Shown piece after piece: positions 19,909-42,271 of a stretch of DNA of 64,000 nt. Made by a program: the position numbers and the translations under genes. Position 1 is the stretch's first letter; every line of letters begins with the position of its first letter. Origin of the DNA: Bacteroidota bacterium (GTDB lineage: Bacteria > Bacteroidota > Ignavibacteria > Ignavibacteriales > Ignavibacteriaceae). Location of the stretch: NCBI GenBank assembly GCA_021824565.1, contig JAKAKL010000121.1, forward strand, positions 62,001 to 126,000, in the 5' to 3' direction. The notes below the pieces were generated by a model. That model worked only from the letters and a program-made list of their open reading frames with translations. It did not search any database and had not been told where the DNA came from.

Positions 19909-19921
19909 CTTTTTCTCTCCA

Positions 19922-22900
19922 CTACTTAATTACTGCAAATTTGCCAATGTACTCGCCTATGCCCGGTGCGTCAACGTGAAAGATGTAAATGCCGTAGGCG
20001 ATATCCATACCATCCTCGGTAACAAGGTTCCAGGGCAGCGCGCCGCCGCTGTTGAGATTAGTATCATCTTTATATAAAGTTTTTACAAGAGCGCCGGCAA
20101 CAGTATAAATTCTTACTGTACATTTTGCAGGAAGATTTATAAAGTTGATCATGCGTGTACCGCGTCCCGATGCGTATAATGTTCTCGGCTCCCATGAAGC
20201 GGCACATATATAAGGATTCGGCACAACGGAAATCTGCGACAGGCTTTTGTTTGCCGTATTATTATTTACACCTGCCGCCTTAGTTGAATAAGTGAAATAA
20301 TCTCCATTAGCAAAAGGTTTTTTAGTATATATTCTGAATTTGTCGCCTGCTTGAGGATACACTGGAGTCTCGCCAGGATTTAACGGTCCGTCGTAATTGA
20401 TTCTCCATGTGTAATATGTTTGGTTTGAAATCGGAACAGTAAAAATTATTTTATCACCGATCGTAAGAGTTTTTGTATGATCATTATCAATAACTTCTAC
20501 GCCTACCGAATCTCCGGTAGTCAAATTAGTCACCGTAAAGTCAATTGGAATTTTTGTCTGTTTGGTTGTTGCAACTGTATGATCAAAGAAATCCATCTCG
20601 TAATCTGCGGGCCACAATAAATCTCTTGATGCAGATGAATTATCAGGCTGTACGCTTAGGTTCAGATTGCTCTTACCAACATACCAGCCGGTTAATGTAT
20701 CATTGACTGAGATTGTAGTATCATTGTTAAAAGTAAATACCATACCATCGTACGGCGGGCTTGATACTGTTGGTCCAAACACTGTTGCGTCGCCGCCGCT
20801 GACAAGAGTAGTGTCAACGCCGTTCAACGATCTAATAACATCATAAGTTGAAGTTTTGTAATTCGGAACAGTCCCAGTTGCATTAAACTTAATCGAATAT
20901 TTAGCGCCGTCTACAATTGCGCCGGGATTCAAAACCTCCGCGCTCATTGAGCCGGTACCGAGCCCGGTAGTAACCCTGCTTAAATCGCCGGATATTTGAG
21001 GCGGCACATAACCGGCTACAGGAGCGTTCGGAGTAACGACAGCGCAGTTAATATCAACAAAAGTAATATTACCTGCGTAATCCTGACGAATAACTTTTGA
21101 ACATTCAGTCGGCTGCAATCCGGTGGTTCCTCGGTTAGGATCACCTTTCGAATATGAACATACGGCATAATAATATGTCTTTCCGTTCTCTACTGTTGTA
21201 TCAACAAAAGAATGCTGAAGTCCTGTGTTGCTTCCTCTCCAGAAATGAGCGCCGTTAATACCAACAGGATCAGGACCTGAGATCGAGTCAACTAAATCGA
21301 ACTGCGCAATCGGCTTCCAGTATTTTGGTTCGCCCTGCGAGTCTGTTATTAGTTTAACATCATTGAACTGCGGCTCGAGGCTTCTATAAATTGTATAACC
21401 TTCAAAGGATTTCTTATAGCCTTGTTTAGGATCGTTGTTTTCAAAGCCTAAGTAGCGATCCCTTGATAATTCGGCTTTGCTGTCCCAGTAGAGAAATACT
21501 CTCTTATTTCCAGCAACCGCATGAACAGTCGGCGTATAAGGCGGTTTAGAGAAATTATAATTGGCGTTATAAATTGCCTGTACGGTTTGTTTATTGAACA
21601 GCAGGTTATTTAAATCATTTCCCATAACCAGCGCTAAAGAGAATCTTTCTCTTAAACCTTTCTTAAGCGGGAAAGGACCGGATGCAAAGACCATGCTTAT
21701 ATTAACATTCTGAACCAATGTATCTTTGAAGCCGTTATTCATTTTTTGCCACATTACATTATCATTCTTTGGCCAGCCTGCCGTAGGACCTTTGTCTGAT
21801 AATATATAAATCGAAACTGCCGTTAGACCGATTTGATCCGATTCATCTTTATCGGTTTCATCAAAATCAGGTTCTCCATGTGTTGGTAAACCATCGCCTT
21901 CGCCTTCATCTGGACCGGTATAACCAGGATCGGCAGGTCCTAAGCCGTCTCTGCCGACATCGTCATTTAACGGTTCACCGGGATCCCATTTGCCGTTTCC
22001 ATTTAGGTCATCAAAAGAAATCCAGTTATGATTATTATCTATATTATCGTCACGTCTTTCATCTATCATTCCATCCTGATCGTTATCAATACCGTCAAAA
22101 GGATTGCCGGGGCTTTCAAGATAAGCATAGCCTAAATATCCCGTTGCCCAGTTTCCCGGATTTCCAACGCCGCCGGGCGCCCAGGAATATGCGATATCTA
22201 ATGAAGTATTAAAATAAGCGCTGTTGCCAGGCTCAGTAGCATTTGCTCCTCCGATACCAGGATCAGCATAAAAGCCAAATGCCGTGGTATCATAAGTGAA
22301 GTCAGAAATATTTACAATATCATAATGCCAGAAAATTATATCTTCTGCTAAAACATGCGACCATTGAAATCCTCTGATCTCAACTCTTAAACCCAAGCCA
22401 GCGCGGTTTGAATCGCTTTTTATCGGGTAATAATAATAAGGGGCTTTTGTAAATTTTTTATCCTGTGAATCATCTAATACCATAAATGTCTCAAAGTCTG
22501 CGTTCATAACGCCTTTACCAAAGTACCCGTACCACTTTCCGTTCCACGATGGATCTAAACCTAATGCAGCAGGCCAAACTTCCGGATAAGATGTAGGATC
22601 AATATTGATGGCGGGGCTTGTATTCTTCGCATTAAAATATCCTGGGACTGGTTCTAATCCCCAGGGAGTGCCGGTAATTGGATCAGCGCTGTATTGTTCT
22701 CTGTAAGCAGATATAATAGGATTTATTTTTTGACCGCTTGGAGTAGTAGCGCGTGCGCCAATAAGAATTGCCTGCCCATCAAGATAATTATGTCCCGATC
22801 CAGCCGGCCATTCGACGGTTGGGAAAATTTCCCATTTACCAACTTCTCCATCATTATAAAACAAAGTATTGATTCTATTGCCAACCATAACACCCTGCCT

Positions 22901-23038
22901 GCGATACGTAAAATTACCAAGAGGATCCTGTCTGTAAAGTTGTATTCGCGGATCAGGAGCGCCTTCGTCAATTTGCGCAAAAGTGTAGCCGGCAGCAATT
23001 ATCAATGTAAAAATTATTGTTAAAATCTTGTATTTCAT
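19922..23038 (-). CDS. Large secreted protein with Ca-binding-like Asp-rich loops and FlgD-Ig-like C-terminus
   Basis: Signal peptide; GIDNDQDGMIDERRDDNIDNNHNWISFDDLNGNGKWDPGEP; C-terminus VRIYTVAGALVKTLYKDD...GIYIFHVDAPGIGEYIGKFAVIK. Confidence 0.75.
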   Translation of the reverse strand: MKYKILTIIFTLIIAAGYTFAQIDEGAPDPRIQLYRQDPLGNFTYRRQGVMVGNRINTLFYNDGEVGKWEIFPTVEWPAGSGHNYLDGQAILIGARATTPSGQKINPIISAYREQYSADPITGTPWGLEPVPGYFNAKNTSPAINIDPTSYPEVWPAALGLDPSWNGKWYGYFGKGVMNADFETFMVLDDSQDKKFTKAPYYYYPIKSDSNRAGLGLRVEIRGFQWSHVLAEDIIFWHYDIVNISDFTYDTTAFGFYADPGIGGANATEPGNSAYFNTSLDIAYSWAPGGVGNPGNWATGYLGYAYLESPGNPFDGIDNDQDGMIDERRDDNIDNNHNWISFDDLNGNGKWDPGEPLNDDVGRDGLGPADPGYTGPDEGEGDGLPTHGEPDFDETDKDESDQIGLTAVSIYILSDKGPTAGWPKNDNVMWQKMNNGFKDTLVQNVNISMVFASGPFPLKKGLRERFSLALVMGNDLNNLLFNKQTVQAIYNANYNFSKPPYTPTVHAVAGNKRVFLYWDSKAELSRDRYLGFENNDPKQGYKKSFEGYTIYRSLEPQFNDVKLITDSQGEPKYWKPIAQFDLVDSISGPDPVGINGAHFWRGSNTGLQHSFVDTTVENGKTYYYAVCSYSKGDPNRGTTGLQPTECSKVIRQDYAGNITFVDINCAVVTPNAPVAGYVPPQISGDLSRVTTGLGTGSMSAEVLNPGAIVDGAKYSIKFNATGTVPNYKTSTYDVIRSLNGVDTTLVSGGDATVFGPTVSSPPYDGMVFTFNNDTTISVNDTLTGWYVGKSNLNLSVQPDNSSASRDLLWPADYEMDFFDHTVATTKQTKIPIDFTVTNLTTGDSVGVEVIDNDHTKTLTIGDKIIFTVPISNQTYYTWRINYDGPLNPGETPVYPQAGDKFRIYTKKPFANGDYFTYSTKAAGVNNNTANKSLSQISVVPNPYICAASWEPRTLYASGRGTRMINFINLPAKCTVRIYTVAGALVKTLYKDDTNLNSGGALPWNLVTEDGMDIAYGIYIFHVDAPGIGEYIGKFAVIK

Positions 23039-23062
23039 TCTATATTCTCCTAATCGTTAAAT

Positions 23063-25777
23063 CTAAAATCCTACCTGCAAACCGATTCTAACCTGCCGAG
23101 GTGCAGAGAAACTTGTAGGATCATTTAGGTATTGCTGAATTGTGTTTAGTCCGTAAAGAGTTCCGGCTAAATAAGTATATAAATCTATATTAGCTCTTCC
23201 GCTGGATGAATTAACATTTACTTCATTCTTAATATCTAACAGATTATAAACGAGTAGAAAAGCATTTATATCGAGCCCGTTAAACTTGAAATATTTTTCG
23301 GCTCTCATATCAACATTATAAGTAGGAGGCTTAAGACCTCCGTTTTCAAAACGCAGTCCTTGAGATAATCTGGTATCTTCAGTATATGGGAAGCCTGAGC
23401 CGTAATTAAATATTAGTCCTACGTTCCAATCATTTGCTTGACCAAAGTTGAACGCAATGTTTAATGTAGAGCGCTGATCCCAATTTAGCGGAACAACGGT
23501 CTTGTTGGTTTCAATAGGCGGATTAGATTGATTATTATAAAATACAGTCATTGGATCAGAAGCGTCTCCTTCAGCTATCTGATAAGTATAATCTAATTTT
23601 GCGCTGAAGAAGTCGGAGAATCTTTTATCAAGAGTTACAACAAATCCTCTAACATTTCCGTAATCTCTGTTAACGTAACGAGCATAGTTAACTCCTTGAT
23701 ATGTATTAATAATTTCCATACCAAGCAAATTTCTGATGTCGCTGTAATAAACCGTAAAGTCTAAAGAGAGATCGGAGGCAAGAGCCTGCTGTAATCCAAG
23801 TTCATACTTTACAGTTTTCTGTGCTTTCAAATCCGGGTTACCAACTATTGTAGATAATGATGCGCTGAATGGAACTATGTAATTTGAATTAACAAACAAA
23901 TTGGAGAAACTCGGTATTTGGAAAAAATGTCCGTAAGAAAAATGTATAATTCCTTTATCAGTAATCGGGAACGAAATTCCTAAACGCGGACTAATCTGCA
24001 TCTTTGCGGTAGCCTCTGTCATTTGACCGGCATTAACGAAGTTAGTATCTCTTAGAGGGTTTCGAGGATCAGTTAAGTATTGAGAATTTGCTTTGAAGTA
24101 ATCGAATCTTACTCCAAAGTTAAGTATCATAATATCATATTCAGCTTTGTCCTGAACGTATGCTGAAAATGCAACAGGATATTTTGTATAAATTGTATTT
24201 GACAGCGTTGTACCTAACTGGCTGTAAAAAGGAGTGTAGACAGAATCAGTAGTTGACAAAGTATCATTGGTTATCAAACTATATTCGTGATCATATAGTT
24301 TATATAAGTCTAATTCTGCTCCGACACCCAATTTATGAACCTTGGAGAGCTGTGCATTAAGCTGCCACTGAAGAATGCTTTCCAAAGTTTCTCTTTCATA
24401 TCTGCCGGACTGCTGCCCGCCCGATTGAAATGTATAGTTTGAAATCGGAGCGCCCTGGCTTGGATCGACATATCTTTTATCAAAAGGATCGGCATAGACA
24501 TATCCTCTATAGTCATACCGGTTAACAGAAAACTTTAAAGTCTGATAAACACTTTGAGATGGGATATGAGAAATTTGGAATGTGTGAACAAAATTATTCA
24601 TATAGTTATTCATAATTCCGTCTGGCGTCCAAGCCCACGCCTGGCTAAAATATTTATTCCAATCTTTATTCCAGAATAAGCTGTAACTAAATTTAAAAGT
24701 AGGAAGGTTGTAAGTTAGTTTTCCGTTAAAGGAATATCGCTCGGTTGGATTCATAGGAACCCACGAACCGTCTCCCGAATGAGTTATAATATAAATTGGA
24801 TTGCCATTTTGATCAAGTATTGGATTTCCGGCAGGATCTTTTAGTTCCTGCGGGGATTTATCATTTACAGTATAAACTCTTTTACCGTATAAATAACCAT
24901 CATCATGATAATACCTGCCTGTGGTAAAGAAAGTTAGGTTGCTTAAAATTTTAGTCGGACCACTTAAGCTGAATTCATAATTCTTTGTCCTAAATGATGT
25001 AAGCTTTCCAATATTAGGAAATACATTCGTATGACTAGTAACATAGTCTCCGGCATATGCCGAAAGCGAGCCGTGGAATGTCTGTGAACCATCCTGCGTT
25101 ACAATATTTACAACACCGGACATTGCTTGTCCGTATTCAGCATTAAAAGTTCCGCTTATAACTTCCATTTCTCTTATAGATGAATTCTCAACTGATAGAG
25201 GTAAACCGCCGTCATAAGGATCGGTCACCGGCAAGCCGTCAACAAGGTATGAAACTTCATCAGAACGACCGCCTCTAAAGTGTCCGCCGACTACGCCAGC
25301 CTGTAAATTTATAATTTGCCCAACGCTTTCAACAGGCATCATATTTATTTCATTTGAAGAAATTGTTACAGAGGATGAAGTAAGGTCTTTTTGAACTAAA
25401 GGTCTTTGCGCAGTAATTACTATCTCTTTTGCATTTACCGATTTTGTATTCATTTTTACATCAAGAGTAAATGTCAAATCAATTTTAATTGGTACCTTTT
25501 TTATAACAGTTTTTTCATAACCGATTGCGCTGACAATTACAGTATAGTCACCCGGAGGAATATTGTTAATGTAATAATAGCCGTTTAAATCGGCTGCGGC
25601 GCCTAAATAAGTTCCTTCAATTATTACATTAGCACCTACCACAGGCTCGCCGGTAGCAGCATCTAATACTTTGCCTGCAAGCTTACCGGTTGTACCAGCT
25701 TTTGTAAGACTGGAAAAGACTATAACTATGAAGAGCACAGCCATCAATTCTTTTGTCTTCACCAGAAATCGCTTCAT
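23063..25777 (-). CDS. TonB-dependent receptor with carboxypeptidase-regulatory-like N-domain
   Basis: GKVLDAATGEPVVGANVIIEGTYLGAAADLNGYYYINNIPPGDY; VSYLVDGLPVTDPYDGGLPLSVENSSIREMEVISGTFNAEYGQAMSGVVNIVT plug. Start moved from 25849 to 25777 (MKRFLVKTKELMAVLF). Confidence 0.93.
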   Translation of the reverse strand: MKRFLVKTKELMAVLFIVIVFSSLTKAGTTGKLAGKVLDAATGEPVVGANVIIEGTYLGAAADLNGYYYINNIPPGDYTVIVSAIGYEKTVIKKVPIKIDLTFTLDVKMNTKSVNAKEIVITAQRPLVQKDLTSSSVTISSNEINMMPVESVGQIINLQAGVVGGHFRGGRSDEVSYLVDGLPVTDPYDGGLPLSVENSSIREMEVISGTFNAEYGQAMSGVVNIVTQDGSQTFHGSLSAYAGDYVTSHTNVFPNIGKLTSFRTKNYEFSLSGPTKILSNLTFFTTGRYYHDDGYLYGKRVYTVNDKSPQELKDPAGNPILDQNGNPIYIITHSGDGSWVPMNPTERYSFNGKLTYNLPTFKFSYSLFWNKDWNKYFSQAWAWTPDGIMNNYMNNFVHTFQISHIPSQSVYQTLKFSVNRYDYRGYVYADPFDKRYVDPSQGAPISNYTFQSGGQQSGRYERETLESILQWQLNAQLSKVHKLGVGAELDLYKLYDHEYSLITNDTLSTTDSVYTPFYSQLGTTLSNTIYTKYPVAFSAYVQDKAEYDIMILNFGVRFDYFKANSQYLTDPRNPLRDTNFVNAGQMTEATAKMQISPRLGISFPITDKGIIHFSYGHFFQIPSFSNLFVNSNYIVPFSASLSTIVGNPDLKAQKTVKYELGLQQALASDLSLDFTVYYSDIRNLLGMEIINTYQGVNYARYVNRDYGNVRGFVVTLDKRFSDFFSAKLDYTYQIAEGDASDPMTVFYNNQSNPPIETNKTVVPLNWDQRSTLNIAFNFGQANDWNVGLIFNYGSGFPYTEDTRLSQGLRFENGGLKPPTYNVDMRAEKYFKFNGLDINAFLLVYNLLDIKNEVNVNSSSGRANIDLYTYLAGTLYGLNTIQQYLNDPTSFSAPRQVRIGLQVGF

Positions 25778-25867
25778 ATTATATATGTACGGATTATCGT
25801 AATTACACATGATCTTTTTTTCCCAGATAGTAAAATGAAAATTTATCAAACCGACCTTTTATAAAAG

Positions 25868-25897
25868 AAGTGCAGTCCCATAAGAGGGACTGCACTT
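25868..25897 (-). terminator. 12-bp hairpin between secreted-protein gene and TonB receptor gene; terminator or attenuator
   Basis: AAGTGCAGTCCC-N6-GGGACTGCACTT; on minus strand followed by CTTTTAT. Confidence 0.6.
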
Positions 25898-25904
25898 AAG
25901 GATT

Positions 25905-28493
25905 TTACTTAAGCAACATCATCTTTTTAACACTTTGGAATGAACCTGATTCTAGCTTATAGAAATAAACACCGCTTGAAAGGCTCGAAGCGTTAAATTG
26001 AATTGTATATTTCCCTTGATTCTGGAATTGATTAACCAAAGTTGCTACAACGCGACCTAAGATATCATATATCTTTAATGAAACCATTCCGGGTTTCATT
26101 AACGAATACTGTATCTGGGTCGATGGGTTAAACGGATTAGGATAATTTTGAGATAGCTGATAGCTGTTAACAACATTATTTGATTTATCCTTTATGCCGG
26201 TAACAGACCATTTGTTTCCAATCCATGTATACGACCAAAGAGAAACATTAGACCAAGAATTACCATTAGCAATTGGGGAATAATCGAGCTGTCCGTCTCT
26301 AGATGTTTTGCCCGGGCTTACGCTATTGATTTCAAAGTCAATAGGTATTCTCATACCTTCCTGAGGAACAAATACATTATCATTTCTCACAGCACCGTTG
26401 TCACCCTTATGAGCCAAATCTGTCCAAGGAATTCTTGCTTCAACATTATAGCCTGCAAGAGGATCAGGGAATCTAGCATTGTTCCATTGATAATTTGAGC
26501 CGTAAAGTTCAAGACTATCGACGCCCATATTATCTATTCTAATATGGTTTTGACAGAATCTAATATGATAATCCGGTTCAGAACCAGACTGGAGGCTAGT
26601 ATGAGGAGCGCCATGCCAATCGTATGCGCCAAAGAATAGATCAGGACAAGAATTTTCATAAGATAATCCTGTCGCATCCAGATTAGGATCATAATAAACG
26701 TTGCTTGCATTAACATGGAAAGCAACATATAAATAATTAGCGTCTACGGCTAAATAAGCATCCGCAGAGCATACAGTATCATTAGGAATAAAGGTATTTT
26801 GAACAACTGTACCGCTATGATCGCTTACATACATTCTGAAAGGAGTAATTCCTGACCATTCACTAAGATCCGCATCCGCAGCAAACCCTGTCGGAGCGCC
26901 CCAATGAATTGTAGTAACACCTAATGCCATATTGGTTGTAGGTGATCCTGTAGCTCCAGGTGTGCCAAGAATTCCAGCATCGCTTCTGCAAACAACTGCA
27001 TAATAATAGGAAACATTCTGATCTGTTCCCGGGGCTTTCAATAAATGCGTATAGGTTTGAGTTCCTTTCGGAATACCTGAAGTAGCAAGTTCGACGCCTT
27101 TAGCAGTAATATCAGTAATAGGATTAAATGAATAATAAATATTGTAAGTACCATTTGGCTGATCAGCAACATCATTCCAAACGATTGTATTTGAGTTATC
27201 TCCATTTGCAATAACAGTAACACCGGTAGGAGCAACTGGAGGAATTACATTGATGGTCGGATTACCTGTCCAAATATTGGTTAGATAAGCAACTTTGCCG
27301 TCGATCCTGCTTGGAGAAGCACTGTCGTGCTGGGTCATTATACCAAATGTGTTAACATTAGAAGGATCAAATCCGGTTGTATTATCCTGAGGAACGAAAT
27401 CGCGCAGAGCAAAAGAATACTGATGCCAGTTTGTATCTGCCGCAGCGTTGAATACGAAACCAACTTTACCAACACCGTTTTCAAATTGCGCTCTAAGAGA
27501 ATCTCCAACAGCATTTGTCTTCATCAAGAATTTTAAACTGTCAACAGGCCATCCGCCGGAAAGATTAAACGGAGTAGATAAAGAGAATCCGAAACCGCAC
27601 CAGCCGTTCAAATATTGGTCGCCCATTGTCCACATTAAAGCATTTGAATTTGGAACCGGACCGGCATTATTTGCCACTGCAATGCTTGCATTGCCCCATG
27701 ACCACGGCGTTCCTAATTGACCCGGTATAGAAATACCATTAAAGATTACGAAAGGAATAGGCTTGTTACCTGTTCTATCGAATCCATCAATTTTGAACTC
27801 TAATGAATCTAAAGGAACATTAGCGAAACCGGCAGGCGGATTTGGACTTGAGGAAGTGGTTGTTGTAACACAAACTATATTCCAGCCCGTCAATTTATCT
27901 ACGTTTAGCTTATCATCATTGTAAGTGAATCCTCCCCAGTTTCCAGGAGCTTCAACGAAGCCGCTGTCGCCAGGAGTAACAGTACGACCGTTTGAATTAA
28001 TTTCATGAAGCGGAATTTTTAGCTGATACCAATCTTTTACCGAATCAAGAACCAAGTCATTTTGATAGATATAGGTTTCAGGCTGAGCGGTACCGTCAGG
28101 ACCGCGATCAACCAGTTGAATTCTAAACGACATATATTGAGGATATATAGGAGCTCTTACGATTTTTATCCATAACCTCAAAGTGTCGCTGGAACTCCAG
28201 TCCATAAATTGACCGGTAGGCATACTGTATATCAACTGAGAGTAACTGCCCCAAGGATGCAAGGAGTCGATCGCAGTTTTAATATCAAGGGAAGCTACGC
28301 CTGCACTTGCTACATAATCAGTAGAGTCTTGCTTCCAATGAAAATAGCTGTGACCGCCTTCGACATTGTGGGTCCAGACAAAGTTAGTGTCTGCTGCTAT
28401 GTTGTCAAAATTCTGTATCATAACTTCCTGTGCAACTGCAACATAAGTCCATGATAGGAGAATAAAGAAAACAGGTAAAATAACTTTTTTCAT
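25905..28493 (-). CDS. Secreted carbohydrate-binding-like protein (CBM9-like domain, fnIII, T9SS sorting domain)
   Basis: FAADADLSEWSGITPFRMY...AYLAVDANYLYVAFHV (CBM9-like); C-terminus NYPNPFNPSTQIQYSLMKPGMVSLKIYDILGRVVATLVNQ. Confidence 0.8.
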   Translation of the reverse strand: MKKVILPVFFILLSWTYVAVAQEVMIQNFDNIAADTNFVWTHNVEGGHSYFHWKQDSTDYVASAGVASLDIKTAIDSLHPWGSYSQLIYSMPTGQFMDWSSSDTLRLWIKIVRAPIYPQYMSFRIQLVDRGPDGTAQPETYIYQNDLVLDSVKDWYQLKIPLHEINSNGRTVTPGDSGFVEAPGNWGGFTYNDDKLNVDKLTGWNIVCVTTTTSSSPNPPAGFANVPLDSLEFKIDGFDRTGNKPIPFVIFNGISIPGQLGTPWSWGNASIAVANNAGPVPNSNALMWTMGDQYLNGWCGFGFSLSTPFNLSGGWPVDSLKFLMKTNAVGDSLRAQFENGVGKVGFVFNAAADTNWHQYSFALRDFVPQDNTTGFDPSNVNTFGIMTQHDSASPSRIDGKVAYLTNIWTGNPTINVIPPVAPTGVTVIANGDNSNTIVWNDVADQPNGTYNIYYSFNPITDITAKGVELATSGIPKGTQTYTHLLKAPGTDQNVSYYYAVVCRSDAGILGTPGATGSPTTNMALGVTTIHWGAPTGFAADADLSEWSGITPFRMYVSDHSGTVVQNTFIPNDTVCSADAYLAVDANYLYVAFHVNASNVYYDPNLDATGLSYENSCPDLFFGAYDWHGAPHTSLQSGSEPDYHIRFCQNHIRIDNMGVDSLELYGSNYQWNNARFPDPLAGYNVEARIPWTDLAHKGDNGAVRNDNVFVPQEGMRIPIDFEINSVSPGKTSRDGQLDYSPIANGNSWSNVSLWSYTWIGNKWSVTGIKDKSNNVVNSYQLSQNYPNPFNPSTQIQYSLMKPGMVSLKIYDILGRVVATLVNQFQNQGKYTIQFNASSLSSGVYFYKLESGSFQSVKKMMLLK

Positions 28494-28567: not shown

Positions 28568-30196
28568 TCAGTACCACATACTCCATAAGCCTAAAATTAT
28601 TAATAGAATAAAGAGCGACATGAAGAGACTTGTTCTATATCCTCTAATAGTTTCAACGTTTTTTATTCCAAAGCTTATATCATGTATAGTATCAGGAAAT
28701 AAATATTGAACTTTCAAAATTTTCGGTTCTCTATCAGCCTGAGTTTTAAGGCTGACTGTTACCATCAGCGCTACGCTTAATACAAACAGCGATATTGAGA
28801 AATACAAAAAGTTTATGTGAACTATTGCAAGAAGAACAGGGTTAGTTACCATGTTGGCGTTTACCAGCATTTCAAGTATCAATCTCAAAAAGCCGATACC
28901 TTCGCCGATAATTAAGGTCCATATTGCACCTTTTGCATTCGCTTTTTTCATCAATAAACCTATAATGAACAAGGCGGCAATCGGCGGGCTGATAAAGGAC
29001 TGAACTCCTTGAAGAAATAAATAAACTTGATTACTTATAAGTTTTACAAGCGGCACGCAAAGTATCGCTAAGACAACGATAACAGTTGTCGAAAGCCGCC
29101 CAACAAGAACTAATTCTCTTTCAGAAGCCTCCGGATGTTTGGTTTTGTAGAAGTCATAAGTAAATAATGTCGAAGTTGTGTTGAATATACTGGAAAGAGA
29201 AGACATTATTGCTGCAAGAACACCGGCTACTACAATTCCTTTAATTCCTATCGGAAGAATATCACTAGCAAGCAAAACGGGATAAGCTTCATTTCCATTT
29301 ATTTCAGGAAATAATGCTATGGCAATTAAGCCGGGTAAAACTAGAATAAACAGAGGAAGGATTTTTAGTAAAGCGGCTAATAATGATCCGCGCCGGGCGT
29401 GATCAATACTTTTAGCGCTTAATATTTTTTGAATAAAATATTGATCGGTGCACCAATACCAAAATGCAATTATCGGAGCGCCGAAGATAATTCCAGCCCA
29501 GGGAAAATCAGGATCGGACAGCGGCTTGAACATATTAAAAAATTCAGGAGGCAATTTTTCTCTTAAACCTGAAAATCCGCCGACAGCATTAAGACTGAAT
29601 GCTGTTAATAAAACTGCTCCCGCTATTAATATTATAGCCTGGAAAATATGAGTCTTCATTACTGCCGTAGCGCCGCCGATTACGCTATATATACCGGTTA
29701 TTAAAACCATTATTATTGTGGAAGTATAAAGATTAATCCCAAATATTTTGTAGAAGATAATACCGCCGGCAAACAGAGTAACAGACACTTTAGTAAAAAG
29801 ATAAATTACAATAGAGAACGCGGAGAAAAATTTTCTTGTAGATCTGTCAAAACGTTTTTCTAAAAATTCCGGAACTGTTGCGATGCCCGATTTAATATAT
29901 ATTGGAGCTAAAAACCATCCAAGAAAGATTAATATAAAAATAGCCATCAATTCAAACTGACCAACAGCTAAACCTCTCAAAGCGCCGGAACCTGCCAAGC
30001 CGATAAAATGTTCACTTGAAATATTAGTGGCAAAGATGGAAAGCCCAACGGTTATCCATCCCATATTCCTGCCTGCGAAAAAGTAATCGTCGGAGTTCTT
30101 ATCTTTCTTGCTGGAATAATAAAAGCCTATACTTAACGTAATGATTAAGTAGACTAATAAAATTAAACTATCAAGCAAAGTAAAATTTGAAACCAA
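28568..30196 (-). CDS. Sodium:solute symporter family (SGLT-like)
   Basis: SDDYFFAGRNMGWITVGLSIFATNISSEHFIGLAGSG; FGAPIIAFWYWCTDQYFIQKILSAKS. Confidence 0.93.
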   Translation of the reverse strand: MVSNFTLLDSLILLVYLIITLSIGFYYSSKKDKNSDDYFFAGRNMGWITVGLSIFATNISSEHFIGLAGSGALRGLAVGQFELMAIFILIFLGWFLAPIYIKSGIATVPEFLEKRFDRSTRKFFSAFSIVIYLFTKVSVTLFAGGIIFYKIFGINLYTSTIIMVLITGIYSVIGGATAVMKTHIFQAIILIAGAVLLTAFSLNAVGGFSGLREKLPPEFFNMFKPLSDPDFPWAGIIFGAPIIAFWYWCTDQYFIQKILSAKSIDHARRGSLLAALLKILPLFILVLPGLIAIALFPEINGNEAYPVLLASDILPIGIKGIVVAGVLAAIMSSLSSIFNTTSTLFTYDFYKTKHPEASERELVLVGRLSTTVIVVLAILCVPLVKLISNQVYLFLQGVQSFISPPIAALFIIGLLMKKANAKGAIWTLIIGEGIGFLRLILEMLVNANMVTNPVLLAIVHINFLYFSISLFVLSVALMVTVSLKTQADREPKILKVQYLFPDTIHDISFGIKNVETIRGYRTSLFMSLFILLIILGLWSMWY

Positions 30197-30225: not shown

Positions 30226-30240
30226 CACAAAAAGTGCCAA
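30226..30240 (-). promoter_or_regulatory. Candidate -24/-12-like element upstream of the SSS operon
   Basis: Minus strand TTGGCAC-TTTTT-GTGA; -24 matches, -12 is degenerate (GTGA vs TTGC). Confidence 0.35.
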
Positions 30241-30311
30241 GATAATTGTTCGGTTATTTTTTTGTTATTCTTATTTTTTTATTGAAGGAAAACTTTCGGA
30301 CAAAAAATTTT

Positions 30312-30348
30312 TTATTAAATTGATAAGCGCTGCTTATCAATCTAATAA
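30312..30348. promoter_or_regulatory. Paired operator: TTATTA-AAT-TGATAA and inverted TTATCA-ATC-TAATAA, 22-bp register
   Basis: Embedded in a 41-bp inverted repeat 30310-30350, 18/19 paired positions, 3-nt spacer. Confidence 0.65.
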
Positions 30349-30400
30349 AATTCAAATGTTTAACCTCTTCTTCAATTTTAATCAAGTGCCAAAATATTTT

Positions 30401-30437
30401 TTATTAGTTTAATAAGTTTGAATTATTATTATGATAA
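30401..30437. promoter_or_regulatory. Second paired operator: TTATTA-GTT-TAATAA (30401) and TTATTA-TTA-TGATAA (30423), 22-bp register
   Basis: Same 15-mer motif and same 22-bp offset as 30312/30334. Confidence 0.6.
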
Positions 30438-30507
30438 AAAAAACAACCGGCGCAACTATGAGTTTTATGTTTCAACTTTCTATTTCATTATTTCAATTTT
30501 AATTTAA

Positions 30508-30522
30508 TGGCATAATTTCTGA
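30508..30522 (+). promoter_or_regulatory. Candidate -24/-12-like element upstream of GH2
   Basis: TGGCAT-AATTT-CTGA; degenerate -12. Confidence 0.25.
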
Positions 30523-30691: not shown

Positions 30692-33016
30692 ATGAAAAAC
30701 TTTTCTACGGTGAAGAGCATTTCACTGCTTGTTATTTTGTTTGCTGTTCGATTTATGTCTGCTCAAACAGCATCTCTTCCGGCAACCTTATCTTTATATA
30801 ATGAGAACGGAATAAGCATTCCATTTCAAAACGGAATGCCTGTGCCGACTTTTGAAAGACAGGATAGACAAATTATTAATCTCGACGGAACTTGGAAGAA
30901 GCTTAGATTTTCCGCCAATCATGATATTACTTTAGCGGCGCGCGATTCGGCAGGATATGCAAACCTCGTTGCTGAATCTCAAAATTATTTCTTACCAAGT
31001 TTTAATGACAGCAGCTGGCAGGCGAAAGATATTCCATCGGTCGAAAACACAATGAATCCGTCTCCAAGCGCTCCTGAGTATTATCAAGACGGCGTTTGGT
31101 ACCGTAGAACTTTTTTTGTTCCAGACAGTCTTCAAGGAAAATTTTTCAAGCTGATGTTTTACTCTGTTAATTATGTAGCGGACGTTTGGATCAACGGGCA
31201 TTATATCGGTTATCACGAAGGAGGCTATACGTCTTTTGCTTTTGATGTTTCCAAATATCTTAATTTTAATTCTGAAAACCTGATCGCGGTAAGAGTCGAT
31301 AATCCGGGATGGGGAACAAGAAATGATATTGTTCCATATTATAACTGCGACTGGTTTAATTATGAGGGAATAATTCATGACGTATATATTGAAGTGAGCA
31401 GTCCTCTATCTGTAATTAGAACAGACATAGTTCCGCTGGATACCGCAGGAAATATTCAAACTACTGTTGTTGTGTTAAATAAAAGCGGAGTTTCAACGAG
31501 TGCGAATATTCATATCGATATTTATCGCGCAAATATTGATTCAACAAATATTCAGTCCGAAACTGCTTCCGCATTAGCTGGAACTTCTGCACTGGCAACT
31601 GGAAACTTAGACAACTCATTAACGGTTGCAAGTGATTCTTTGGACGTTTGGAGAACAATACTAAAGGTCGATAACCCAATGCTATGGTCTCCAAAATTTC
31701 CGAACTTATATATTATGAAAGTAACAGTTTCGGACAGCGGCAAAGTTGTCGATCAATATTATACCCAGTTTGGAATTAGAACAATCGTTACTCAAGGTAC
31801 AAAAGTTTTACTTAACGGCAAGCCGGTATTTTTCACTGGAGTTGCACGACATGAAGATCATCCAATATATGGAAGAGCAATTCCTGACAGTGTAATTTAT
31901 ACAGATCTAAAAGTCATAAAAGGTTTAAATGCGAATATGATTAGGACTGCTCATTATCCAAATGCACCGTTCACATATACTTTGGCAGATAGAATGGGAT
32001 TTGCAATCATGGAAGAAATTCCAGTCTGGTGGTTTGATGATCCAGCTGCATGGGCAATTCAAAACAATACAAGACACATTCATCAGCAGATGTTTAGAGA
32101 AATGGTTTTCCGCGATTACAATCGCCCATCGATAATATTCTGGAGCACGTGCAATGAATGTTTGGATGTTCCGGACAGGGCAGCATATATTCAGACAATC
32201 CAATCGGATATAAAAAATAATTATAACGACGGAAGATTAATTACACAATCTGCTGCTGCAAACAGACCGGGACCGCAAGATGTCTCTCAAGACAATTGCG
32301 ACGTTGCAGGCTGGACTATGTACTTTGGAATTTTTTACGGAAGTAATTACAACTCCGATACGCAAAGTTTCCTGGACACTGCTAATATTGATCATCCTAA
32401 TAAACCAATTATGGATACTGAATTCGGCTATTGGTCAACTCAATCTGGCTCTACAGAACTACAGCAGGCTCAAGTATTTTTATTAACCTTTAAAGTTTTT
32501 CAACAAAACGCCGCTGTAAATGCTAACGGGACTTATAATCCAAACGGCTATGTTGTAGGATCAATGTGGTGGTGTGCTTTTGACTGGTATACAGCACAAA
32601 CCGGTCTGCAAACTATGGGAATATATCATATGGATAGAACAACGATTAAAAAAGTTGGACCAATTCTCCAAAGCACTTACAAGCCCTATTATCAATATGG
32701 TGGAACTATTACTGCGGTAAAAGACAAAGCTTCAAACGTGCTGGAGCCTATGGATTATCGGCTTAATCAAAATTATCCAAATCCTTTTAACCCTAGTACG
32801 ACTATTTCTTTTTCTCTTAAGAAAAGCTCGAATGTTACTTTAAAAATCTACGACATCCTCGGTAATGAAGTTTTAACGGTGATAAATAATAAACTTTACT
32901 CGCAAGGAGCGCATGAAATAAGTGCAAACATGAACAGATTTTCTTCAGGAGTTTATTTTTATCAATTAGTCAGTGATAATTTTACTTCTGTAAGAAAAAT
33001 GATATTGTTGAAATAA
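30692..33016 (+). CDS. Glycoside hydrolase family 2 (beta-galactosidase/glucuronidase-like), secreted, T9SS sorting domain
   Basis: GVWYRRTFFVPDSLQGKFFKLMFYSVNYVADVWINGHYIGYHEGGYTSFAFDVS; RDYNRPSIIFWSTCNE; C-terminus NYPNPFNPSTTISFSLKKSSNVTLKIYDILGNEV. ATG 30692 preceded by GGAG. Confidence 0.93.
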   Translation: MKNFSTVKSISLLVILFAVRFMSAQTASLPATLSLYNENGISIPFQNGMPVPTFERQDRQIINLDGTWKKLRFSANHDITLAARDSAGYANLVAESQNYFLPSFNDSSWQAKDIPSVENTMNPSPSAPEYYQDGVWYRRTFFVPDSLQGKFFKLMFYSVNYVADVWINGHYIGYHEGGYTSFAFDVSKYLNFNSENLIAVRVDNPGWGTRNDIVPYYNCDWFNYEGIIHDVYIEVSSPLSVIRTDIVPLDTAGNIQTTVVVLNKSGVSTSANIHIDIYRANIDSTNIQSETASALAGTSALATGNLDNSLTVASDSLDVWRTILKVDNPMLWSPKFPNLYIMKVTVSDSGKVVDQYYTQFGIRTIVTQGTKVLLNGKPVFFTGVARHEDHPIYGRAIPDSVIYTDLKVIKGLNANMIRTAHYPNAPFTYTLADRMGFAIMEEIPVWWFDDPAAWAIQNNTRHIHQQMFREMVFRDYNRPSIIFWSTCNECLDVPDRAAYIQTIQSDIKNNYNDGRLITQSAAANRPGPQDVSQDNCDVAGWTMYFGIFYGSNYNSDTQSFLDTANIDHPNKPIMDTEFGYWSTQSGSTELQQAQVFLLTFKVFQQNAAVNANGTYNPNGYVVGSMWWCAFDWYTAQTGLQTMGIYHMDRTTIKKVGPILQSTYKPYYQYGGTITAVKDKASNVLEPMDYRLNQNYPNPFNPSTTISFSLKKSSNVTLKIYDILGNEVLTVINNKLYSQGAHEISANMNRFSSGVYFYQLVSDNFTSVRKMILLK

Positions 33017-33030: not shown

Positions 33031-34488
33031 TTATTTAAGTCCAAGTTCTTTAGCCATCCTATAATAATTGGAAGGAGCGAGACCGAGTTTTCGTGCGGCA
33101 TCGGTATCCGATTCAGAATGATGACGAACGTAAGTTAGGTATTTTTCTCTGATCATTCTTTCCATTTGAGATAATGGCAGAATATTATTTTCAAAAATTG
33201 CTTCAATACCGGAGAGCGAGCTGTTGTTATTATTTTTATAATACGAGCCCAGCGAATCTTTTGCCTGCTCAACATTAATTTCCCTTTCATCGCCGAAGAG
33301 CAATCTTTGAATAACATTTTTAAGTTCTCTGACATTTCCCGGCCAAGGGTAATTAACTAATACCTCCATAGCAGCCGGATGGATTGATGGTTTTTCTCTT
33401 CCCATTTTATTGCTGAACTGAATCATAAAATGATCAAGTAAAATTGGAATATCGCTCTTTCTAAGTTTTAAGTCAGGCACTTCTATATATATTACATTAA
33501 GCCTATAATAAAGGTCTTCTCGGAATCTTTTTGCTTTTACTTCCTCTTCAATATTTCTATTCGTCGCGGCGATTATTCTAATATTAACTTTTATTTTTTC
33601 GGTACGTCCGATTTTTTCTAGTTCCCCTTCCTGAATTACTCTCAGCAATTTTACCTGAGCTGTAAGAGGGAGTTCCGTTATTTCATCGAGGAATACTGTA
33701 CCGTTATGTGCGATCTCAAATAGACCGGACTTTTTTTTATCCGCGCCGGTAAAGGCGCCTTTTTCGTATCCGAATAATTCACTTTCAATAAGTTCGTGCG
33801 GAAGGCTGCCGCAATTAATCGGTATAAAGTTTTCGAACTTTCTTTCACTATTATAATGAATATTATATGCTACCAATTCTTTACCGGTACCGGAGGAACC
33901 GCTAATCAAAATGTTAACGTCGCTCTGTGCATATTTTTTAATTTCATCTTTTAATTTTTTCATCGTAGGAGATTCGCCAATAATCTGCTTTTGACAAAGC
34001 AGGTCTTCAATATTCTTAATTAATTTCTGATTCGATTTCAGTCTTTCTTTTTCAAGCTTGCTTTTTTCATAAGCGTTAAAGATGCTTAACACAAAATCAG
34101 TAGGCTGATAAATATAATCTTCGATGTCTCCTGGATATTTTGTGCAGTACCAGAAGGCGCCGGCGCGCATAAGTTTATTGGCAAAATCAAAGTCAGTAAT
34201 ATTAATCGTCATCTTTGTAATAACGATAATTTGAATTGACGAATCGACTTCTTTTATTTTCTGAATTAATTCTTCGCCCATTACGCCGCCGGCAAGGTGG
34301 AAATCCATCACCACAACATCAAATTCATTTTTATTTTTCTTAATAAGATCAAGTGCCGCATTGCCGTCGGAGACGATATTCGAAATATTAATTTTATCAC
34401 GGAATGGTTTTAAAGTGTTCATCACCCGAATTACATCATATTCCTCGTCTTCGATAAGCAGGACCTGAATAGTACTATTTATGAACAT
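33031..34488 (-). CDS. Sigma54-dependent response regulator (REC-AAA+-HTH)
   Basis: LLIEDEEYDVIRVM...VVVMDFHLAGG; SGSSGTGKELVAYNIHYNS; ELFGYEKGAFTGADKKKSGLFEIAHNGTVFLDE (GAFTGA); C-terminal HTH DTDAARKLGLAPSNYYRMAKELG. Confidence 0.95.
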   Translation of the reverse strand: MFINSTIQVLLIEDEEYDVIRVMNTLKPFRDKINISNIVSDGNAALDLIKKNKNEFDVVVMDFHLAGGVMGEELIQKIKEVDSSIQIIVITKMTINITDFDFANKLMRAGAFWYCTKYPGDIEDYIYQPTDFVLSIFNAYEKSKLEKERLKSNQKLIKNIEDLLCQKQIIGESPTMKKLKDEIKKYAQSDVNILISGSSGTGKELVAYNIHYNSERKFENFIPINCGSLPHELIESELFGYEKGAFTGADKKKSGLFEIAHNGTVFLDEITELPLTAQVKLLRVIQEGELEKIGRTEKIKVNIRIIAATNRNIEEEVKAKRFREDLYYRLNVIYIEVPDLKLRKSDIPILLDHFMIQFSNKMGREKPSIHPAAMEVLVNYPWPGNVRELKNVIQRLLFGDEREINVEQAKDSLGSYYKNNNNSSLSGIEAIFENNILPLSQMERMIREKYLTYVRHHSESDTDAARKLGLAPSNYYRMAKELGLK

Positions 34489-34506: not shown

Positions 34507-35985
34507 TTAGCAGTTTATTGTAATTATAAATTCGCAGCCAGCCGCCGGAAGATTATGCACGTCGATTTGCCAGCCGCACCTTTTTGTAATTTCGTATGCA
34601 ATATAACAACCGTAACCTGTATTTTGAATTGTTGATTGCTTAGTTGAAACATTTTCTTCAAATATTTTTTTAATCCCCTGTTCATTCAGTTCGAGAAGAA
34701 ACGGATGTATGCCTTTGCCGTTGTCTGAAATTCTAACTGTTGCTTTCCGGTTTTCACGGTCATATTCTGTTTTCACATTTATCAAAATATCCTGGACACC
34801 GGCATGGTCTATACTGTTTTGAATCAGCGGCTCCACAACTTCCCAGATAACAAATTCATTAACGCCGATCTTAGGAATATTTTTATCAAGCTCAAGGTTG
34901 ACATCATAAATAGTCGACTTCCTTGAAGTTCGCAGGAAAATATGTTCAACAATAAAATTAATAACTTCATTTAAGTCGGTTCTAAATATTGCATTTCTAA
35001 TTGTCTGAATCGGAGGATCGAACCATTTCATGTCGTAAATTATTCTAGAAATAAAATTGGCATATTTTGTTACTCTGAATTTTATTTCGTTAATATTTTC
35101 CGGCGCCAGCAATTTTAGATCGCCTTTTATAAAGCCCATAACCTTTTCAGCTTTATGATGCGTATGATAAATTCTTTTTGTAAAGACTAATTCTTTTTCG
35201 TAGGTAATTTGTTTTTTAATGTTCTGCTCATGCTCATCAAAAAGAAGTTTCTGAGCTTCATCTCTTTCCCGCAATGTATAAGAAGAAATAAAATACATAG
35301 CAAGCAGACCTAAAGAAATAAATGAAAGATATATTAAAGAAGTCTCGTCGTAGTTAGAAATTATCTGGCTTGTCATAAAAGAAAAATCGGGCGTATTTTT
35401 AATATAAACTGCTCCGACATATTCGCCTTTCAGAACAAATGGCACAAAAGTATTGAAAGTCTGCTTATCCGTAACTATGCTTTTAATTTGTTCCTTTGCT
35501 CTCAGTTCATCACGTACACTGATGTAAAGGTCTCTTGCCTTTTCATGAACTTTACTGTTTACAGAGCCGTTAGAATTTATTCCGGATACATAATTAAAAA
35601 GATTTCTTCCGTCGTCGATAGCCAGCACATCTTTTCCATTATCTACCATAATGCAAATATCTTCAATGTTATGCTGAAGGATAGGCTGAACTAAAATTAT
35701 ATTCAACGACTGAATAATTCTCTGGCTGTCGCCTTCCTTAAGAACCTGCTGTTGATTAAACGATTCAAGCAAAAGTTCAAGCGATGTGGTTGTAAGATTA
35801 GCAAGCTTCTCCGCTGAATCTTTTTGATACCATTCCTGCGTGCTCATAAAAAAATTTCTGATTGAAGATTTGTTAACAAATGAAACCAGAAACTGGAATG
35901 AAAAGAGCACAACAAAAATCACGGTGATATGTTTAAACTCAAAGTGATATTCCTTGAATTTATCAAGCATCTTTCTATTAGACAT
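34507..35985 (-). CDS. Membrane sensor histidine kinase
   Basis: Two TM segments flanking a periplasmic domain; N-box EVVEPLIQNSIDHAG, G1 ISDNGKGI, G2 TGYGCYIAYEI. Confidence 0.88.
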   Translation of the reverse strand: MSNRKMLDKFKEYHFEFKHITVIFVVLFSFQFLVSFVNKSSIRNFFMSTQEWYQKDSAEKLANLTTTSLELLLESFNQQQVLKEGDSQRIIQSLNIILVQPILQHNIEDICIMVDNGKDVLAIDDGRNLFNYVSGINSNGSVNSKVHEKARDLYISVRDELRAKEQIKSIVTDKQTFNTFVPFVLKGEYVGAVYIKNTPDFSFMTSQIISNYDETSLIYLSFISLGLLAMYFISSYTLRERDEAQKLLFDEHEQNIKKQITYEKELVFTKRIYHTHHKAEKVMGFIKGDLKLLAPENINEIKFRVTKYANFISRIIYDMKWFDPPIQTIRNAIFRTDLNEVINFIVEHIFLRTSRKSTIYDVNLELDKNIPKIGVNEFVIWEVVEPLIQNSIDHAGVQDILINVKTEYDRENRKATVRISDNGKGIHPFLLELNEQGIKKIFEENVSTKQSTIQNTGYGCYIAYEITKRCGWQIDVHNLPAAGCEFIITINC

Positions 35986-36002: not shown

Positions 36003-37319
36003 TTATTTTAGCAGAAAATTCCCGGCGTTAATTTTTTCAGTCGCACTGTTAAGGGCATCGGAAACGGAAATTTTTTTCTCTATTGCTTCGTGTAAATAGT
36101 ATGAAATAATATCTGAAATGCCGGTATAACTCTGAAGAAAAGGTCTGTGCACACCTTGTTTTAAAAGCTTTTTAAAAAAATAAATTGATTTATGTTCGCG
36201 TAAAAAAGAAGAATCCTCGTACACTTGATCATTGATGGGAAGAAGTCCTCCTTCTTCGTATAAAACTTTTTGCGCTTCCTCGCTTGTAATAAAATTAATA
36301 AATTTTACAGCCTCGGGAATTTTATTCGAGAATCTTGAGATCATTAAGTTCCAGCCGCCGAAAACTGAAGTTGCTTTTCCGCCTGCAAAATGGGGAGTTG
36401 GCGCTCTTTCAATTTTATTAAATATATTTTTGTACGACGGATTCCTTTCGTAGCCGGCGTAAAATCCAGGCCAGCCGCGGAGAAAGATTCCGTTATTCTT
36501 TAAATAATAAACATAGCTTGGGTCTTCTTTAAATCTGGAGACAGCAAGCGGCGAGACATTATACTTATTTACGAGGTCTACGAGAAGCTGTAAAGCCTTT
36601 TTTGCTTCAGGTGTATTAAGCTGAATTTTCCCTTCGTCCACAAAAGATTTGCCTTCGCTTTCAAGCAGCTCATCAAATATACAAATAAGCCCTTCGTAAT
36701 CATCTGCTTGATAAATAAAAAAAGGATTCTGCTTGTCTTTTAATCTCTTGCTGAGAGACAGAAAGTTTTCCCAGGTTATCGAATTGTTAAGCTCGTTTGC
36801 TATATTTTTATAGTCCGGTAAATCCTGCAATAAATCTTTTCTGTAATACATCAATGCCACATCAATATACAAAGGCATTGCAACGAGCCTATCGTTATAA
36901 TAGCAGGTTTCAATTGCATTTTTTAAAATATTATTTTTCTGCTGATCAGTTATAAAACTATCTATCGGAACACTCCACTTAGCAAATCTTGGAACCCAGA
37001 TTTGATCAACAGCAAAAATATCAATTCTGTCACTCTTACTCCTTAAATATCTTGCTAATAATTCTTTTCTTTCGTTCGTGCTAAACTTGTCAAAAGGTAG
37101 ATTGATAGTTTCAACTTCAATCTGTCCTTTATATCTCTCATTAAACATATTAACGACTTTCTGAAGAGCGGGAGGAATAGCGTCTGCGTAGTAAATTTTC
37201 TTTACCCCTCCGGGCGCGTCTGAAGATGAATCATAAGGCGGGAAAATATAACTAACCAATACAAATGTTATTACTAAAAAAGCACTGATAACTACATAAA
37301 AAATTTTTCCGAATTTCAA
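36003..37319 (-). CDS. Membrane-anchored extracellular solute-binding protein (family 1, sugar type)
   Basis: Uncleaved-looking N-terminal TM without lipobox Cys; VVNMFNERYKGQIEVETINLPFDKF; FAGGKATSVFGGWNLMISRFSNKIPEAVKFINFITSEEAQKVLYEEGGLLPI. Confidence 0.9.
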   Translation of the reverse strand: MKFGKIFYVVISAFLVITFVLVSYIFPPYDSSSDAPGGVKKIYYADAIPPALQKVVNMFNERYKGQIEVETINLPFDKFSTNERKELLARYLRSKSDRIDIFAVDQIWVPRFAKWSVPIDSFITDQQKNNILKNAIETCYYNDRLVAMPLYIDVALMYYRKDLLQDLPDYKNIANELNNSITWENFLSLSKRLKDKQNPFFIYQADDYEGLICIFDELLESEGKSFVDEGKIQLNTPEAKKALQLLVDLVNKYNVSPLAVSRFKEDPSYVYYLKNNGIFLRGWPGFYAGYERNPSYKNIFNKIERAPTPHFAGGKATSVFGGWNLMISRFSNKIPEAVKFINFITSEEAQKVLYEEGGLLPINDQVYEDSSFLREHKSIYFFKKLLKQGVHRPFLQSYTGISDIISYYLHEAIEKKISVSDALNSATEKINAGNFLLK

Positions 37320-37574: not shown

Positions 37575-37611
37575 TTATTATTTTAATAATAAAATTTTAT
37601 TAAAATAATAA
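37575..37611. promoter_or_regulatory. Third paired operator: TTATTA-TTT-TAATAA (37575) and TTATTA-AAA-TAATAA (37597), 22-bp register
   Basis: Same motif and 22-bp offset as the two pairs at 30.3-30.4 kb; extended palindromes 37570-37594 and 37595-37613. Confidence 0.6.
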
Positions 37612-37837
37612 AACCAAGCTCTATCAATAATAGTTATTAAATATATACAGCCTTAAAACTAGCTGTATGAATAATAAATTTGTCGCCGTTAACAAAATTC
37701 AGCGGGCATAGTATTTGTTTTTATAAACAAGACAAAAATGTCTTCCTGTTCGCAGGGAATTGAGAAAAAGATTTACAAAATTAAGTTGAAATAAATGGTT
37801 AAAAAATATAGAAATATAGAATCTGATATTCTTGCCT

Positions 37838-37858
37838 CGTTAACGTTAACGCAGCGTT
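37838..37858. promoter_or_regulatory. Overlapping perfect palindromes, candidate operator upstream of the FucP-like operon
   Basis: CGTTAACGTTAACG (37838-37851) overlapping AACGC-A-GCGTT (37848-37858). Confidence 0.6.
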
Positions 37859-37988: not shown

Positions 37989-39320
37989 ATGGCTGTTTCA
38001 AGTCCAACGCCTATATCGGCGCAACCTCTAAACCAATCCAACAAAAATTACACAACTGAGCTAACTATACTAACTTCCCTTTTTTTCATGTGGGGATTTT
38101 TAACATGCTTGAATGATATACTAATTCCCCATCTCAAAGCCGTTTTTTCGCTCAACTATGCTCAGGCTATGCTGATCCAATTTTGTTTCTTCGGCGCTTA
38201 CGCTTTGATTTCGCTTCCTTCAGGAATTTTAGTTGAAAAAATCGGATACAAAAGAGGAATTATTATCGGATTGGTAACAGCAGGAATTGGCTGCCTAGCA
38301 TTTTACCCTGCTGCCGGAACAAGATCTTATCCTCTTTTTCTTCTTGCACTTTTTATCTTAGCTGCCGGTATAACATTGCTGCAGGTTGCTGCAAATCCTT
38401 ACGTAGCTATTTTAGGAAAACCGGAAACAGCTTCGAGCAGGCTAAATCTTACCCAAGCTTTTAACTCATTAGGCACTACCATTGCTCCATATTTTGGTTC
38501 GTTATTGATTCTTTCAGTTGCAGTCAAGAGCGTTGAAGAAACTCAGAAAATGAACCCTGCTCAATTAACAGCTTATCAATTAACAGAAGCAAGCGCCGTG
38601 CAGGTACCTTATCTTGGACTGGCGGCTGCGTTACTAATTATTGCAGGAATTTTTGCCGTTGTAAAACTTCCTGAAATTGAAGCAAGCAGCATAGGCTCAA
38701 GCGGCGGTGACGGCAACAGCTACGACTCGCACCATGAGAGTGCATGGAAATATAGACATCTAATGCTCGGAGCAATCGGGATTTTCGTTTATGTCGGCGC
38801 TGAAGTTTCAATAGGAAGTTTTTTAGTAAATTATTTTGGAAGTTCTTCAGTCTTAGGAATGAAGGCTGCTGATGCCGGCAAATTTGTTTCATTTTATTGG
38901 GGCGGCGCAATGGTTGGCAGATTTATCGGTTCCTACATACAAAGAAAAATTAAACCCGGCATCGTACTTGCTTTTAATGCTGTTGTTGCAAGTATTTTAG
39001 TCGTCACCTCAATGCTCTCTTTCGGTTATTTAGCAATGTGGTCCATTCTACTTGTAGGATTATTTAACTCAATCATGTTCCCGACAATTTTCACTTTAGC
39101 AATTGACGGATTAGGAAAGCATACCGGACAAGGTTCGGGAATTCTTTGCATGGCGATTGTGGGCGGCGCTATTATTCCCGTACTACAAGGTTTAATTGCC
39201 GACAGCATTGGAATTCATCATGCGTTTATTCTTCCGGTAATTTGTTATTTGTTCATAATATTTTACGGATTGAAAGGACATATTCCTCATCTTCCAAAAT
39301 TAAAGGCTCAAAATGCCTAA
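37989..39320 (+). CDS. Sugar MFS transporter, FucP (L-fucose/glucose-galactose permease) family
   Basis: [86 protein letters not shown]. Confidence 0.95.
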
Positions 39321-40296
39321 CACGGATGTAACCCTTGGTATAGATATCGGCGGCACAAATACAGTTTTTGGATTTGTTGATAAATCCGGTAATTGTATAA
39401 TTGAATCCGCAGTTCTTACAAAATCCAATGAGCCCGCGGAAAAATTATTTGCCCGTCTTCAATTAGAGATTAATAATTTGTATAAAAAAATTTCAAGCGA
39501 CTATGATTTTATTGGAATTGGAATTGGCGCGCCAAACGCAAATTACTATAACGGAACAGTTGAGTATCCTCCAAATCTGAGCTGGGGTTATGTAAAAGTC
39601 TTGGAAATCGTTCGGCAATATTTTGACATTCCTTCTGCAATTACAAATGATGCTAACGCTGCAGCAATCGGAGAAATGAAATTCGGCGCAGCAAAAGGCA
39701 TGAAAGATTTTATTGTAATTACACTGGGTACCGGACTTGGAAGCGGCATTGTAGCAAATGGAGAATTAATATATGGAGCCGATGGATTCGCCGGCGAAAT
39801 TGGTCATACAATTTATGATCCAGATGGTAGAAAATGCGGCTGCGGGAGGAAGGGCTGCCTTGAAACTTATGCTTCGGCAAGCGGCATTAAACGGACAATT
39901 TTTGAACTTCTGTGCAACTCAACCGAAGAAAGCGAATTTAGAGATATCAGCTTTAACAAGATAAACGCAAAAATGATTTCCGACGCTGCTATGCGCGGCG
40001 ATAAGATTGCGCTTGAGGCTTTCGACTATACAGGAAAAGTTTTGGGAATAAAATTAGCTGATTCGGTGGCGCATTTCAGTCCCGAAGCTATTATTCTCTT
40101 CGGTGGTTTAGCTGCAGCGGGAGATTTGATTTTTAAGCCCACCCAAAAATATCTGGAAGAAAATTTACTGAATATTTTTAAAGGCAAAGTAAAACTCATT
40201 CCGTCTGCATTGACAAAAGGCAACACTGCTGTGCTCGGAGCAAGCGCCTTAATCTGGAATGAACTTGACAAACTTAAGAAAGATGAAATCCAATAA
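39313..40296 (+). CDS. ROK family sugar kinase
   Basis: [41 protein letters not shown]; no N-terminal HTH. Overlaps the upstream gene by 8 nt. Confidence 0.93.
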
Positions 40297-40360
40297 AATA
40301 ATCAATTTGTTACATGATGCAGCTTTTATTCTGATCTAAGAAATAGATTGTGAAAGTCAA

Positions 40361-42235: not shown

Positions 42236-42271
42236 TTATTTCTTTAAAATCCAAAAAAGGGATTTCTAATT

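Follow-up and report, generated by a model that had tools for sequence, protein, structure and literature searches.

The window, by which we mean the whole 64-kb stretch of DNA analysed (G000:C20:62001-126000), carries glycan-use genes next to a small cluster encoding a carbohydrate solute-binding protein (SBP), a histidine kinase (HK) and an NtrC-type response regulator. The features on which our reading depends are the following.

16394-28493, minus strand: T9SS protein, TonB-dependent receptor, 1038-aa protein, PorV-like protein and GH3, the remainder of the left gene series and a putative operon
28568-30196, minus strand: SSS sodium/solute symporter, leading the left target operon
30240-30225, minus strand: left sigma54-like promoter TTGGCACTTTTTGTGA, for the SSS/T9SS/TonB operon
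30312-30348: operator pair 1 (sites 30312-30326 and 30334-30348), exact match, predicted to serve the leftward SSS operon
30401-30437: operator pair 2 (sites 30401-30415 and 30423-30437), exact match, predicted to serve the rightward GH2 gene
30508-30522, plus strand: right sigma54-like promoter TGGCATAATTTCTGA, for GH2
30692-33016, plus strand: secreted GH2 enzyme with a T9SS tail, the right target (open frame from 30644, likely ATG at 30692)
33031-34488, minus strand: NtrC-type response regulator with receiver, AAA+ domain with GAFTGA and putative Fis-like HTH, the proposed binder of the pairs
34507-35985, minus strand: sensor histidine kinase, membrane-anchored, HATPase_c detected
36003-37319, minus strand: SBP, the proposed sensor partner of the kinase
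37575-37611: operator pair 3 (sites 37575-37589 and 37597-37611), a 22-bp pair of the same regulon
37704-37718, plus strand: sigma54-like promoter GGGCATAGTATTTGT, facing the MFS-ROK-GH operon, 93 bp from pair 3
37989-46131, plus strand: MFS glucose/galactose-type permease, ROK glucokinase, glucoamylase-like 624-aa protein, GH5 and GH3, the third target

A sequence-only reading of the divergent region 30226-30522 had described four copies of TTATTA-N3-TRATAA, at 30312, 30334 (minus orientation), 30401 and 30423. All four are exact, both pairs have the 22-bp register, and the two outward-facing -24/-12-like elements were found where that reading had placed them. Between the edge of pair 1 and the GG of the left element the distance is 73 bp, and for pair 2 and the right element it is 71 bp; in both elements GG and G-13 are spaced 12 bp apart, as in sigma54 promoters. 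Counting 25 nt from the first G of each element predicts transcript starts at about 30213 (left) and 30534 (right), near the 30215 and 30535 proposed earlier. With up to one mismatch allowed, the motif occurs 25 times in the window, against 4.6 +/- 3.1 in shuffled sequences (maximum 13). Pair 3 was absent from the earlier reading. It was returned together with pairs 1 and 2, and nothing else, by an operator-free search, covering both strands of the window, for two similar palindromes 21-23 bp apart with a downstream GG[CT][AC]-N7-TG. Elsewhere in the same genome, allowing up to three mismatches, one further pair, C20:197403, precedes a T9SS protein gene (element at 92 bp) and another, C141:18510, precedes a GH3 gene (element at 71 bp); there is also a weak pair at C8:2872 (element at 52 bp). 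Control of the SBP-HK-regulator operon itself through pair 3 was considered and is mostly unsupported, as an element was present on just 3 of 26 SBP sides. A separate palindrome, CGTTAACGTTAACG at 37838-37853, falls within the MFS leader, between the sigma54-like start and the coding region; it resembles a LacI-type operator and could add a layer of repression.

The regulator gene at 33031-34488, on the minus strand, does encode the GAFTGA-containing sigma54 activator that had been read from the sequence. Its C-terminus reads as a Fis-like HTH that is conserved in the family, with no HTH_8 match at 1e-3, and a Pfam scan of the kinase gave no HisKA match. The genes for the SBP, HK and regulator are adjacent, keep their order among loci and sit next to the targets. 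The SBP has sugar-binding relatives and its cluster is without an ABC permease, which together suggest a sensor role for the SBP like that of CuaD (PMC10384115). By this analogy, the SBP would act as the sensor of a three-component system, and both ligand binding and contact with the kinase are predicted. By eye, the SBP starts with a hydrophobic segment in which neither a clear cleavage site nor a lipobox is apparent, and the protein may therefore be held in the membrane next to the kinase. A second SBP-HK-regulator cluster is present in the same genome (L181, G000:C5:8000-27000), with a regulator (C5:16306-17748) that is 60% identical and just one degenerate pair, 62 bp from the sigma54-like CTGGTCTAATTTTTGA; a sister regulon or cross-talk is possible there.

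Whole-genome scans found exact pairs, at a register of 21-23 bp, in 34 of 80 family genomes, and the reversed-pattern control in 1 of 80, so that the paired motif picked out by the sequence-only reading is not randomly scattered. The named relatives are Ignavibacteriota, including Melioribacteraceae. A clear homologue of the regulator is encoded in 36 of the 80 genomes, at an analyst-chosen cut of 490 bits that still takes in distant paralogues. Pairs are present in 32 of these 36 genomes as against 2 of the 44 without the regulator (Fisher p=1.3e-15); nearly all of the genomes are metagenome bins, and relatedness inflates simple counts of this kind, for which the thinned phasing set described below corrects in part. 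The two exceptions carry little weight. One genome with pairs and no regulator, G015, is 79% complete and has the SBP and the full target layout. Another with pairs and no clear regulator, G012, carries on C48 a regulator fragment that is 57% identical and contains stops, and its system is possibly decaying. In the same genome, at L193 (C172, 102-137), an exact pair stands with no detectable element. When one mismatch is allowed, a pair is also seen in G054, which has the SBP and an HK gene running off the contig end, and this truncation is probably why the regulator is missing there.

Linkage adds to this association. The regulator or a close homologue is encoded no more than 10 kb away from 44 of the 75 exact pairs, where about 0.6 would be expected. 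The regulator tree has pairs spread over the regulator group and none in a well-supported paralogue clade. The loci of that pair-less clade (L123, L125, L131, L132, L140-L142, L147, L149, L184, L186 and L188) have the same cluster layout, and an operator-free scan for a motif of their own found none. Because of this co-occurrence and linkage, the neighbouring regulator is the best candidate to bind the pairs. The pairs and sigma54 promoters could be real and yet answer to another bacterial enhancer-binding protein (bEBP), such as the paralogue at C5:16306 or a more distant one. The genome contains a single rpoN and 19 scored bEBP-like matches. Several paralogues, the one at C5:16306 included, have a nearly identical recognition helix, by virtue of which some of the sites could be bound also, or instead, by another member of the family, and the degenerate pair at L181 does lie close to a sigma54-like element. 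We nevertheless consider a different activator unlikely, since the pairs track the neighbouring regulator across genomes and cluster near its group, the paralogue clade is without them, and three genomes with distant paralogues only (G002, G016 and G026) had no exact pairs in the genome scans.

The promoter side of the arrangement was examined around 97 distinct pairs, whose register is 22 bp in 67, 23 bp in 19 and 21 bp in 11; since the loci were taken around the regulator, this set is biased to its neighbourhood, whereas the genome scans are unbiased. The pattern GG[CT][AC]-N7-TG occurs at 50-105 bp in 83 of 193 full outward flanks, compared with 1 on the opposite strand and an average of 4.2 in Markov controls. 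The pattern was fixed after the window had been seen, and the relatives' genomes are independent of the window. An element lies 45-110 bp outward of 80 of 96 pairs, on exactly one side in 77 and on both sides in 3, and the remaining 16 have none under this simple pattern. The spacing GGCAY-N6-TG is clearly favoured, with 71 occurrences against at most 24 at any other spacing, and an excess at N4 probably comes from TTTTTGTG runs. GG at -25/-24 and G-13 are exactly 12 bp apart, in the orientation of transcription. A GC at -13/-12 is not a feature of these elements: among 86 of them, in a search that required T-14 and G-13 and left the -12 base unconstrained, that base is A in 33, T in 24, C in 21 and G in 8. 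As the -12 C is not conserved, we term the elements sigma54-like rather than proven sigma54 promoters. The degenerate -12 half had been called the weakest part of the original argument; the degeneracy proves to be common to the regulon, and the variable -12 base may be a trait of the phylum or a feature of this regulon.

Distances from pair to GG cluster at 60-64, 70-75, 80-84 and 92-95 bp, which are helical-turn steps. Once similar linkers had been removed, leaving a thinned set with a mean linker identity of 32%, the distances were concentrated in phase at a period of 10.5 bp with R=0.66; the maximum in 20,000 jittered sets was 0.37. The SSS promoters alone are also phased, at 51, 60-63, 70-75 and 94 bp. 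Tandem palindromes therefore stand upstream of the promoters in helical phase with them, and such distances would be required by an activator that must be turned towards the polymerase over a short DNA loop. A second alternative is that the pairs are operators for a repressor or ordinary activator on sigma70 promoters of the Bacteroidota type (-33/-7), with the GG...TG elements incidental. AT-rich palindromes are common operators, and some of the elements (TAATATTTG) do resemble a -7 box. We reject this explanation as very improbable on the orientation, spacing and phasing of the elements: the GG-to-TG spacing is fixed, the outward bias is 83 to 1, and the elements stand several helical turns away in phase, whereas a repressor would be expected to overlap its promoter. 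Moreover, the conserved cluster encodes a sigma54 activator.

The intergenic DNA of related genomes was also compared. Pair 1 forms an invariant island in an alignment of four species, and the TCACAAAAAGTGCCAAGA of the left promoter is identical in all four. Aligned with G015, pair 3 likewise stands out as a block of identical sequence; the GGCATAGTATTTG of the third promoter is also identical there, and the surrounding DNA has diverged. In L151 and L195, counterparts of the right element are found at a distance of 71-72 bp from a pair. The first of these loci, in G020, retains the divergent two-pair layout at distances of 74 and 72 bp. The second, in the sibling species G015 (C217, 407-443), has a single pair placed 74 bp from the SSS element and 71 bp from the GH2 element; the interval holding the second pair is missing, yet the pair-to-element distance has been kept. 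The pairs are thus conserved at orthologous loci, as footprint-like islands in otherwise diverged DNA. Together with their non-random occurrence and the helix-phased elements, this supports the layout that the sequence-only reading had recognized, that of an enhancer-binding protein with upstream activating sites. The idea that the motifs arose by chance, or are AT-rich DNA of a structural kind on which no regulator acts, has next to no probability despite the very AT-rich intergenic DNA, being rejected by the shuffles, the reversed-pattern controls, the genome scans and these islands.

Across loci, the first genes behind the elements encode SSS (36), MFS (17) and GH2 (15) proteins, GH3 types (4) and T9SS proteins (2); one further first gene, in L092, was read as GH16-like from its sequence alone. 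From the enzyme content we would guess that the substrate is probably a beta-glucan or a related plant or algal glycan.

We suggest that the region 30226-30522 is very probably a two-way gene switch, in which paired sites are helix-phased to the promoters of two sets of genes for glycan uptake and cutting. In the model that we propose, the SBP would detect an extracytoplasmic sugar or oligosaccharide and signal through the kinase to the NtrC-type regulator. Two dimers of the activated regulator would then sit on each TTATYA-N3-TRATAA pair, two helical turns apart, and this paired binding would promote assembly of the AAA+ ring. The ring would touch sigma54-RNA polymerase at a -24/-12 element 70-75 bp off, on the correct helix face, and open the promoter using ATP. 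One pair would serve the SSS operon, another GH2, and the third, at 37575, the MFS-glucokinase-GH operon. We infer regulator binding, phosphorylation, the ligand, the transcript starts and activation rather than repression, and put the probability of the whole bidirectional sigma54 enhancer/promoter model, driven by the SBP, kinase and regulator, at roughly 0.87. Judged from sequence comparison, a conserved three-component glycan sensor of SBP, HK and sigma54 activator most likely switches on glycan-use operons of Ignavibacteriota.

In the open-access literature that we searched, no account of such a regulon in Ignavibacteria turned up. The regulon is new, although its kind is known, and its layout recurs in many Ignavibacteriota genomes. 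It offers an experimentally tractable regulatory code for glycan breakdown (operator, promoter, spacing rule and proposed cognate regulator) in a phylum with few cultured members, and would widen the reach of sigma54 control beyond the PTS systems of Firmicutes to loci for secreted glycan degradation. The natural variation in distance, in steps of about 11 bp over some 75 little-related promoters, is in addition a resource for studying how bacterial enhancers are phased on the helix.

The polysaccharide utilization loci (PULs) of Bacteroidota are regulated by hybrid two-component systems, SusR and ECF sigma/anti-sigma pairs. The present system resembles them in that TonB receptors and glycoside hydrolases are controlled from their own locus, and differs in the class of regulator and type of promoter. 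SusCD is scarce in the gene clusters of Ignavibacteriales (PMC10576277). We think it reasonably likely that Ignavibacteriota run their SusCD-poor glycan loci by a lineage-wide SBP-kinase-sigma54 sensor, with an enhancer strictly built of pairs and a loosely specified -12 element, and not by hybrid two-component, SusR or ECF regulators. Among NtrC-family (group I) bEBPs with upstream activator sites, which have been reviewed (PMC7057263) and whose regulons have been reconstructed in Clostridiales (PMC6615313), the same combination is found of receiver, AAA+ GAFTGA and Fis-like HTH (putative here), multiple upstream inverted repeats, -24/-12 promoters and a regulator gene clustered with its targets. 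In contrast to the TGT-N10-12-ACA type common there, the operators here are AT-rich 15-bp TTATYA-N3-TRATAA sites, set in pairs with a fixed two-turn register; the -12 C is not conserved, and the distance from pair to promoter is mostly 60-95 bp rather than the 100-250 bp reported for Clostridiales (PMC6615313). CuaDSR of Ruminiclostridium cellulolyticum is a three-component system in which a sugar-binding SBP is the sensor for glycan-use genes (PMC10384115). Here too a dedicated sugar-binding SBP gene adjoins a kinase/regulator pair, with its sensory role predicted, whereas the regulator is a sigma54 activator, the cluster has no ABC importer, and the targets are SSS, MFS and TonB uptake together with secreted GHs. 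Finally, sigma54 control of carbohydrate uptake is shared with the LevR/CelR-type activators of Firmicutes sugar PTS operons, but those are controlled through the PTS (PMC3162934), whereas the regulator described here has a receiver domain and takes its predicted input from a kinase and SBP.
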